This document shows, piece by piece, positions 34,191-35,039 of a stretch of DNA of 64,000 bases. The notes under the pieces were generated by a model. The model ran no database searches and had not been told where the DNA came from. It was given only the letters and a program-made list of their open reading frames with translations. Both the position numbers and the translations under genes were made by a program. The first letter of the stretch is position 1. Each line of letters begins with the position of its first letter. This DNA is from Olsenella sp. (GTDB lineage: Bacteria > Actinomycetota > Coriobacteriia > Coriobacteriales > Atopobiaceae), in the NCBI GenBank assembly GCA_022648325.1, contig JALCMG010000008.1:1-64000 (forward strand), given 5' to 3'.

Positions 34191-35039
34191 ATGGACGCGG
34201 AAAAGGTTGGAGCCACCATATCCGTCCTTCGCAAGCGCAAGGACATGACACAACGCGAACTGGCTGATCAACTTCGGGTGACCGACAAAGCAGTCTCCCG
34301 CTGGGAGCGTGGTCTCGGAGTACCAGATCAATCGCTTCTCTCCAAGCTTGCTGAGGTGCTCGAGACGGATATCGAAGTCATCCTTGAAGGCGAGCTTTGG
34401 CGAGGGGAGCCATCCTGGCGCGGACTGCTATGGCTTAACTATGAGGATGGGATTGGCCCAGATACTATGCTTTATGGTAAACGCTCCGTTTACCTCCAGC
34501 TGGGTTATCTGTTGCTCGCTGGTATCCGGCGGATTACCGTCGCAGGTATGCCTGAGACGGGCGAGGCCGCAAAGAGACTTGTCTCGAAGGTGGACGGTTA
34601 CGACGTTGATTTCAGTTTCGTCAATCTGCCTACCGGTTTTTTGGAATGGTCGCCTTCCAATAATGATGTCCCAGCGTCCACTGCCAGAGGTAGCGGGACG
34701 ATGCTCGTGACTGGTCTGGACTTTCTCTATGGAAAAGACCTGACCAGGGCATTCAAACGTCAGATGGCCGAGTGCGAGGGGCCCGTGCGGCTCACGGGGC
34801 ATAATGGTGTAGCTACGTCTGTATACTTTGTTCCCGGAGAGCAGAAGCCACTCAGCCTTCTGCGCAGTCTCAGATGTATCGAAGCCCAGTCTCGGAAGCT
34901 CGAGCGCGGAATAGTGTGCTTCCCCATAGAATCGCAGGATGACGTTATTGACGCCGCGAACCTGATAGCAATACTTGAGCGCCATTCTGGTGAGTCCGTG
35001 ATGGATCTCGGGGCGATTGCTCGGCACAGGGGCATGTAA
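34191..35039 (+). CDS. XRE-type HTH regulator fused to a degenerate RmlA-like nucleotidyltransferase domain
   Basis: 282 residues. Residues 6-65 form a clear Cro/XRE helix-turn-helix (VLRKRKDMTQRELADQLRV, then DKAVSRWERGLGVPDQ). Residues 77-220 resemble an RmlA-type domain: DTMLYGKRSVYLQLGYLLLA continuing GIRRITVAGMPE parallels the DKPMVYYPLSTLMLAGIRDV region of RmlA, and LVTGLDFLYGKDLTRAFKR parallels LVLGDNIFYGNGLSRRLRR. The GxGTRLxPxT nucleotidyltransferase signature is absent, with a deletion of about 16 residues where it should be. Catalysis is therefore unlikely; ligand sensing (dTTP, sugar-phosphate or dTDP-sugar) is plausible. It is the last gene after wzx, before a probable internal promoter. 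Confidence 0.75.
   Translation: MDAEKVGATISVLRKRKDMTQRELADQLRVTDKAVSRWERGLGVPDQSLLSKLAEVLETDIEVILEGELWRGEPSWRGLLWLNYEDGIGPDTMLYGKRSVYLQLGYLLLAGIRRITVAGMPETGEAAKRLVSKVDGYDVDFSFVNLPTGFLEWSPSNNDVPASTARGSGTMLVTGLDFLYGKDLTRAFKRQMAECEGPVRLTGHNGVATSVYFVPGEQKPLSLLRSLRCIEAQSRKLERGIVCFPIESQDDVIDAANLIAILERHSGESVMDLGAIARHRGM

Follow-up and report, generated by a model that had tools for sequence, protein, structure and literature searches.

Regulators that use a former enzyme-like domain as an effector sensor are known, and PurR of Bacillus subtilis is one of them. HutC and FarR are placed in the same group in PMC3602430. They differ from the protein studied here in fold and in ligand, as does PurR. BzdR of Azoarcus pairs an XRE helix-turn-helix (HTH) with a shikimate-kinase-like domain, which serves as its benzoyl-CoA sensor (PMC3602430). 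For RmlA, the allosteric inhibitor site of the P. aeruginosa enzyme comprises Leu45, Gly115, His119, Glu120, Glu255, Ile256, Arg259 and Gln260; in PMC8613358, these pocket residues are described around a synthetic allosteric inhibitor, and the RmlA allosteric sites are located at the monomer-monomer interface. In Salmonella RmlA, E256 touches dTDP-rhamnose (PMC10375476); this residue was equated with P. aeruginosa Glu255 using an alignment made by eye.

The DNA analyzed here (the window) is a 64,000-nucleotide stretch of an Olsenella sp. contig. One of its open reading frames joins an XRE HTH to a catalytically dead RmlA homologue (Table 1). The product is a predicted regulator, and on balance we lean toward the view that it binds a dTDP-sugar in the old allosteric pocket and controls the promoter that begins 13 bases past its own gene. 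Its likeness to BzdR (PMC3602430) lies in the N-terminal XRE HTH and in a C-terminal, enzyme-homologous domain whose enzyme activity is lost, and which is an effector sensor in BzdR and a predicted one here. By contrast, the BzdR ancestor was a shikimate kinase and the Walker-A motif was retained, whereas here the ancestor was an RmlA whose active site was erased and whose allosteric core was kept. A shikimate-kinase-like C-terminal domain of the BzdR subfamily was not found in the window protein: the C-terminus matches RmlA, and the PRK08154 match covers residues 5–67 only. In the initial annotation of this DNA, no described regulator class with such a fusion was known, and a literature search limited to CC-licensed papers (weak evidence of absence) likewise returned no paper on an XRE HTH-RmlA class. 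A former enzyme as the sensor of an XRE regulator is a known kind; what looks new is that the enzyme is RmlA and that its feedback site is the part put to use.

Table 1. Positions of the features discussed, in window coordinates.
Feature	Coordinates	Strand	Evidence or remark
rmlA and rmlB	27308..29233	+	TIGR01207, 452 bits; rmlB Pfam matches
Wzx-type flippase	32688..34184	+	PF13440, E 7.5e-92
HTH/pseudo-RmlA fusion regulator (predicted)	34191..35039	+	282 aa, open frame; HTH and RmlA profile matches
XRE-type HTH, residues 6-65	34206..34385	+	PF01381 and PF13560 matches
RmlA-like domain, residues 74-282	34410..35036	+	No catalytic signature; middle part for sugar binding missing
Leu109 = P. aeruginosa RmlA Leu45 (allosteric pocket)	34515..34517	+	40/40 class C rows
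Tyr180-Gly181 = RmlA Tyr114-Gly115 (Gly115 allosteric)	34728..34733	+	40/40 and 39/40 class C rows
Arg239-Gly240 = RmlA Arg219-Gly220	34905..34910	+	37/40 and 40/40 class C rows
Ala275-Ile276 = RmlA Glu255-Ile256	35013..35018	+	Class C: Ile 39/40, Glu 23/40; Glu lost in window
AAC-N9-GTT, candidate operator, shares bases with -35 box	35039..35053	+	Centre about -42
Promoter-like TTGTCG - 18 - GATAAT before downstream operon	35052..35081	+	2 such sites found vs 0.7 expected in shuffled region
DegT/DesI-like sugar aminotransferase, likely target operon gene 1	35140..36264	+	PF01041, E 8.4e-92
ATP-grasp protein, likely target operon gene 2	36252..37481	+	Kept beside regulator in L036
NAD-dependent epimerase/dehydratase, likely target operon gene 3	37478..38509	+	Kept in L036

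The XRE HTH that the initial annotation had placed at residues 6–65 was matched by PF01381 (HTH_3; residues 13–63, E 3.9e-13, 49.7 bits against a curated cut-off of 23) and by PF13560 (residues 7–62). In the predicted model of the regulator (pLDDT 90.3), the HTH helices span residues 3–16, 21–28, 32–39 and 47–56. Two RmlA-like segments had also been named from the sequence, and both proved real: NCBIfam TIGR01207 matched residues 94–197 (E 9.6e-6, above chance), and a family profile run against PDB chains aligned regulator residues 94–281 with RmlA 28–260 (E 2.7e-21). A third such segment, absent from the earlier list, covers residues from about 233 to 282. The profile and structure comparison proposed at that time accordingly returned RmlA homology and a predicted RmlA fold, not an unrelated one. 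Compared with RmlA/RfbA (TIGR01207, PF00483), the C-terminal domain is homologous, has the same predicted fold and mostly keeps the constant allosteric residues; it differs in that the catalytic signature and the metal and sugar ligands are missing, the central region is shortened and an HTH is added. Its TIGR01207 score (24.9 bits) falls under the 360.65 required. The GxGTRLxPxT signature, already noted as deleted, is absent: the first RmlA strand stays (model residues 77–81), and the GxGTR loop is swapped for a shorter, different one. At its other end, the window-type domain stops at RmlA residue ~262 and is without the C-terminal helices.

Family motifs were counted in 161 members, including the window protein, after the fragments P0040, P0041 and P0048 had been dropped. 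G.G[TS]R in residues 61–130, [LV].GDN and W.D[TV]G were each found in 0 of the 161, and E[EK]KP in one. All 16 active-site positions examined in the window regulator differ from RmlA. Gly10, Gly13, Lys25, Lys162 and Asp225 are presumably further RmlA active-site positions within this set. Apart from these five, the positions were taken from PMC9415975, in which enzyme numbering is mixed, and were shifted here to P. aeruginosa RmlA. In class C, the sugar-binding middle part is missing as well. Judged by sequence, the RmlA-like domain lacks all of the catalytic residues checked, and the loss is family-wide.

Because conserved residues stay more often anyway, retention was compared over the 135 positions at which 10 or all of 11 true RmlAs agree. 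Residues were counted on the domains alone, the L047 RmlA was left out of the alignment, and rows that were over 85% alike entered the counts as one, which gave 78 rows in class A, 27 in class B and 40 in class C (145 non-redundant members). Among the 135, retention in classes A, B and C was 2.4, 3.2 and 0.9%, respectively, at the 16 active-site positions and 28.8, 25.1 and 22.9% at the 115 positions belonging to neither site. The four allosteric positions (Leu45, Gly115, Glu255 and Ile256, from the site described in PMC8613358) were kept at 99.4, 91.7 and 88.1%; a permutation test based on these four positions yielded 0.0001, 0.0014 and 0.0003. Over all eight pocket residues listed in that paper, identity was 62.0, 45.8 and 47.5%, vs 19.7, 17.1 and 15.0% elsewhere. 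Five of the eight (Leu45, Gly115, Glu255, Ile256 and Arg259) are almost invariably present in class A, with Glu255 in 78/78 rows and Arg259 in 77/78; true RmlAs have Arg259 in 6/11. The corresponding class C counts are 23/40 and 11/40. His119, Glu120 and Gln260 are substituted in all three classes (mostly by Thr, Lys/Arg and Arg). The window regulator retains Leu45, Gly115 and Ile256, i.e. three of the eight and three of the four that are constant in RmlA; Glu255 is replaced by Ala and Arg259 by His. Arg219 of RmlA, also represented in Table 1, presumably has a role in a secondary site.

These alignments suggest that evolution largely kept the core of the RmlA feedback (allosteric) pocket, not the active site. 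A former catalytic site that senses a substrate, either dTTP or a sugar-1-phosphate, would suit the RmlA fold and the retained part of the core, but such sensing is very improbable, because the allosteric pocket is conserved and the substrate site is not: none of the 16 positions survives in the window protein, 0.9–3.2% are kept family-wide, and class C has lost the part of the domain that held the sugar. A substrate-site sensor was judged unlikely on account of the lost active-site residues. The initial proposal of a ligand sensor therefore stands in part, with a dTDP-sugar effector site favored and the dTTP or sugar-1-phosphate version argued against. Changed sugar specificity in class C may be proposed, since Salmonella E256 contacts dTDP-rhamnose (PMC10375476) and Glu255 and Arg259 are often lost in this class. 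Given these losses and the Ala and His of the window protein, the sugar moiety recognized may be a different one, or part of the pocket may have decayed.

Because the pocket lies in the subunit interface, its retention could be structural. The RmlA-like domain might then bind no small molecule at all and act as a dimer or tetramer scaffold, or dock on genuine RmlA and read the state or amount of the enzyme by mixed assembly. The clustering of RmlA allosteric sites at that interface (PMC8613358) would allow the kept residues to serve it, and true RmlA above the cut-off was found in 10/10 regulator genomes; this co-occurrence says little, because 7/14 control genomes have RmlA too. On the other hand, the nearly invariant Glu255 and Arg259 of class A are polar pocket residues for which a pure scaffold would have no obvious use, Arg259 varies among true RmlAs, and the window-type domain ends before the C-terminal helices. 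A scaffold or docking function is considered unlikely, and occupation of the pocket by a dTDP-sugar is preferred.

Downstream of the regulator, the -35-like TTGTCG described in the initial annotation does begin 13 bases past the stop codon, with an 18-base spacer and GATAAT. The cagacc/ggtctg inverted pair that had been put forward as the regulator's target is present near this box, but it was rejected as an operator because half of the right arm is lost in L036, the closest relative locus (ggccga, 3/6 bases kept; the left arm reads ctgacc, 5/6). The candidate operator in Table 1 is identical in L036, L039, L040 and L054, has one mismatch in L038, and was not seen at L037, L055, L056 or L057 among the ten loci viewed. 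Two bases of the window element belong to the regulator stop codon, and a centre at -42 or -41 presumes the usual start-site spacing. Six of the ten loci (the window, L036 and four from selenomonads, i.e. the family of G398) have AAAC-N8-G(G/A)TTG, with GATAAT separated from the -35 hexamer by 17 or 18 bases. Eight positions are invariant in both clades, and 6/8 of them agree (binomial 0.004, for a pattern first picked by eye). The stretch conserved here between the window and L036 is AAACWGACCATCGGTTG; at up to 3 mismatches, it occurs in the window only at 35038–35054. Two class C loci from Lachnospiraceae (the family of G397) share a different box after the stop, GTATATGATNCAAANAGT, and at L057 the next gene starts 28 bases after the regulator.

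Overlap of the candidate operator with the -35 hexamer would also be expected of a protein that is mainly a repressor, travels with a glycan cassette and, without needing a ligand, blocks the -35 box of the promoter that follows. The four selenomonads are consistent with such a repressor: conservation covers the ribosome-binding site, the regulator gene and the promoter behind it but not the more distant sequence, and the genes that come next are in part different ones. However, the 145 non-redundant members counted retain the second domain, which is some 200 residues long or longer and has a conserved pocket core, and the selenomonad alignment shows no matching box ahead of the regulator. This explanation appears rather improbable, and a ligand-responsive regulator remains our preferred reading.

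The flippase gene ends 6 bases before the regulator start, and co-transcription of the regulator with the glycan operon is therefore likely. Pfam-named glycan neighbors in the window agree with the position beside glycan genes assigned initially, and the RmlA gene reported 6 kb before the frame lies at 27308–28210. Description of the locus as rhamnose-containing is only partly correct, as the copy before the regulator comprises rmlA, rmlB and a truncated rmlC. The segment from rmlA into the beginning of rmlC is present twice (27307–29388 and 57146–59227; 99.76% identity); rmlC is cut off in the first copy, whereas the second runs on into an intact rmlC-rmlD. The rmlA-rmlB products are the likely source of dTDP-4-keto-6-deoxyglucose. 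At all ten loci viewed (the window, L036–L040 and L054–L057), the next downstream gene is on the same strand as the regulator. Pfam identified glycan or sugar-modification genes in the window and, within a set of ten genes, in L039 and L040; those at other regulator loci were recognized by eye, and some next-door genes of L055, L056 and L057 are nameless. The downstream operons of L037, L038, L040, L054 and L056 (by eye, and by Pfam for L040) contain genes for carrier proteins, KASIII-like synthases, SDRs, and FabA/Z-like, NeuB-like, LuxE-like or transketolase proteins, with the aminotransferase further along; acyl-decorated amino-sugar pathways are likely.

The nearest solved relative of the window aminotransferase is 2po3 (E 5.2e-56), which we take to be DesI, a dTDP-4-keto-6-deoxyglucose aminotransferase. 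The best NCBIfam model for the window aminotransferase is TIGR04427 (DesI), with a score of 277.6, far under the cut-off of 650. Orthologs (52–93% identity) were found in 8/9 other regulator genomes, and in 7 of those 8 the gene shares contig and strand with the regulator and lies 0.1 to 21 kb downstream. The G399 ortholog is on another contig; G878 has only a 30% identical aminotransferase, 0.85 kb downstream of the regulator. Among selenomonad genomes, 37/151 have the aminotransferase at E ≤1e-117, comprising 5/5 with the regulator vs 32/146 without (hypergeometric 0.0007, relatedness ignored); at a looser E ≤1e-60, the count is 63/151 (hypergeometric about 0.01, relatedness likewise ignored). 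In Lachnospiraceae, 92/397 genomes have it at E ≤1e-60 (2/3 with the regulator, 90/394 without). The regulator goes with the aminotransferase branch, and the branch mostly exists without the regulator.

Elsewhere in the window, the ORFs at 44531–45499 and 51788–52753 (322 and 321 aa) are paralogs by eye and have no PADLOC match. A 473-aa ATPase-like protein (54891–56312) matches the candidate defence model PDC-S27 (E 7.8e-44), and a 990-aa protein (60843–63815) is PrimPol-like in one part (E 5e-78) and matches further defence models more weakly.

Conservation of the fusion beside glycan loci across Coriobacteriia, also raised in the initial annotation, was not borne out: at E ≤1e-30, with the best six first-look candidates per genome scored, the regulator was found in 1/396 genomes of the class. 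In the genus, it was found in 1/8. At E ≤1e-18, 102 genomes of the class match, 100 others over the HTH region only; the G010 match spans regulator residues 94–282, and loci L008, L017 and L035 among these matches are other HTH proteins. Absence in the class, and in Lachnospiraceae, is not firm, because the best six first-look candidates per genome were scored. The 397 Lachnospiraceae genomes (best five candidates per genome scored) gave one class A locus (L057, in G878) and two known class C loci; the gene context of classes A and B is thus based on one locus. Class A/B relatives (P0121–P0236 and P0044–P0047) have the same HTH-RmlA architecture and the same loss of catalysis. In viral contigs, no relative was found by query A2, and query A4 returned nine loci matching residues 1–74 only; phage records (4) matched residues 1–75 only, and plasmid matches of P0131 start at residue 56 at the earliest (best 8 of 298 records). 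P0131 and P0146, HTH-RmlA proteins without catalytic motifs, are labelled 'dTDP-glucose pyrophosphorylase' and 'glucose-1-phosphate thymidylyltransferase', which is likely misannotation; HTH-bearing proteins that carry the former name without catalytic residues call for caution.

The fusion, its RmlA homology, the loss of catalysis, the retained pocket core, the gene order and the conserved promoter-like layout are observed; that the protein binds DNA and a dTDP-sugar, and that it regulates the operon behind it and with what sign, we infer. A dTDP-sugar in the interface pocket would determine how the two HTH domains are arranged in the dimer, since the allosteric sites of RmlA sit between monomers. 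The dimer would bind the AAC-N9-GTT element at about -42, where it would touch the -35 box. XRE proteins can activate from such a site, as lambda CI does at PRM, and activation is modestly favored over occlusion. Through the operon encoding the aminotransferase, ATP-grasp protein and epimerase, the dTDP-4-keto-6-deoxyglucose that RmlA and RmlB produce would enter an amino-sugar branch, and the switch would therefore match that branch to dTDP-sugar supply. The broader reading, which we regard as evenly balanced, is that an RmlA acquired an XRE HTH, lost its active site altogether and made its feedback site a transcriptional dTDP-sugar sensor, founding a widespread undescribed family through which glycan branches read the metabolite that throttles RmlA. 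If true, the domain may offer a dTDP-sugar biosensor module, and the family would be a natural case of an enzyme turned regulator by retaining its feedback site instead of its active site. The regulator itself would then be a transcription factor that reads the sugar-nucleotide pool via a fossil allosteric site and ties surface-glycan expression to precursor supply.
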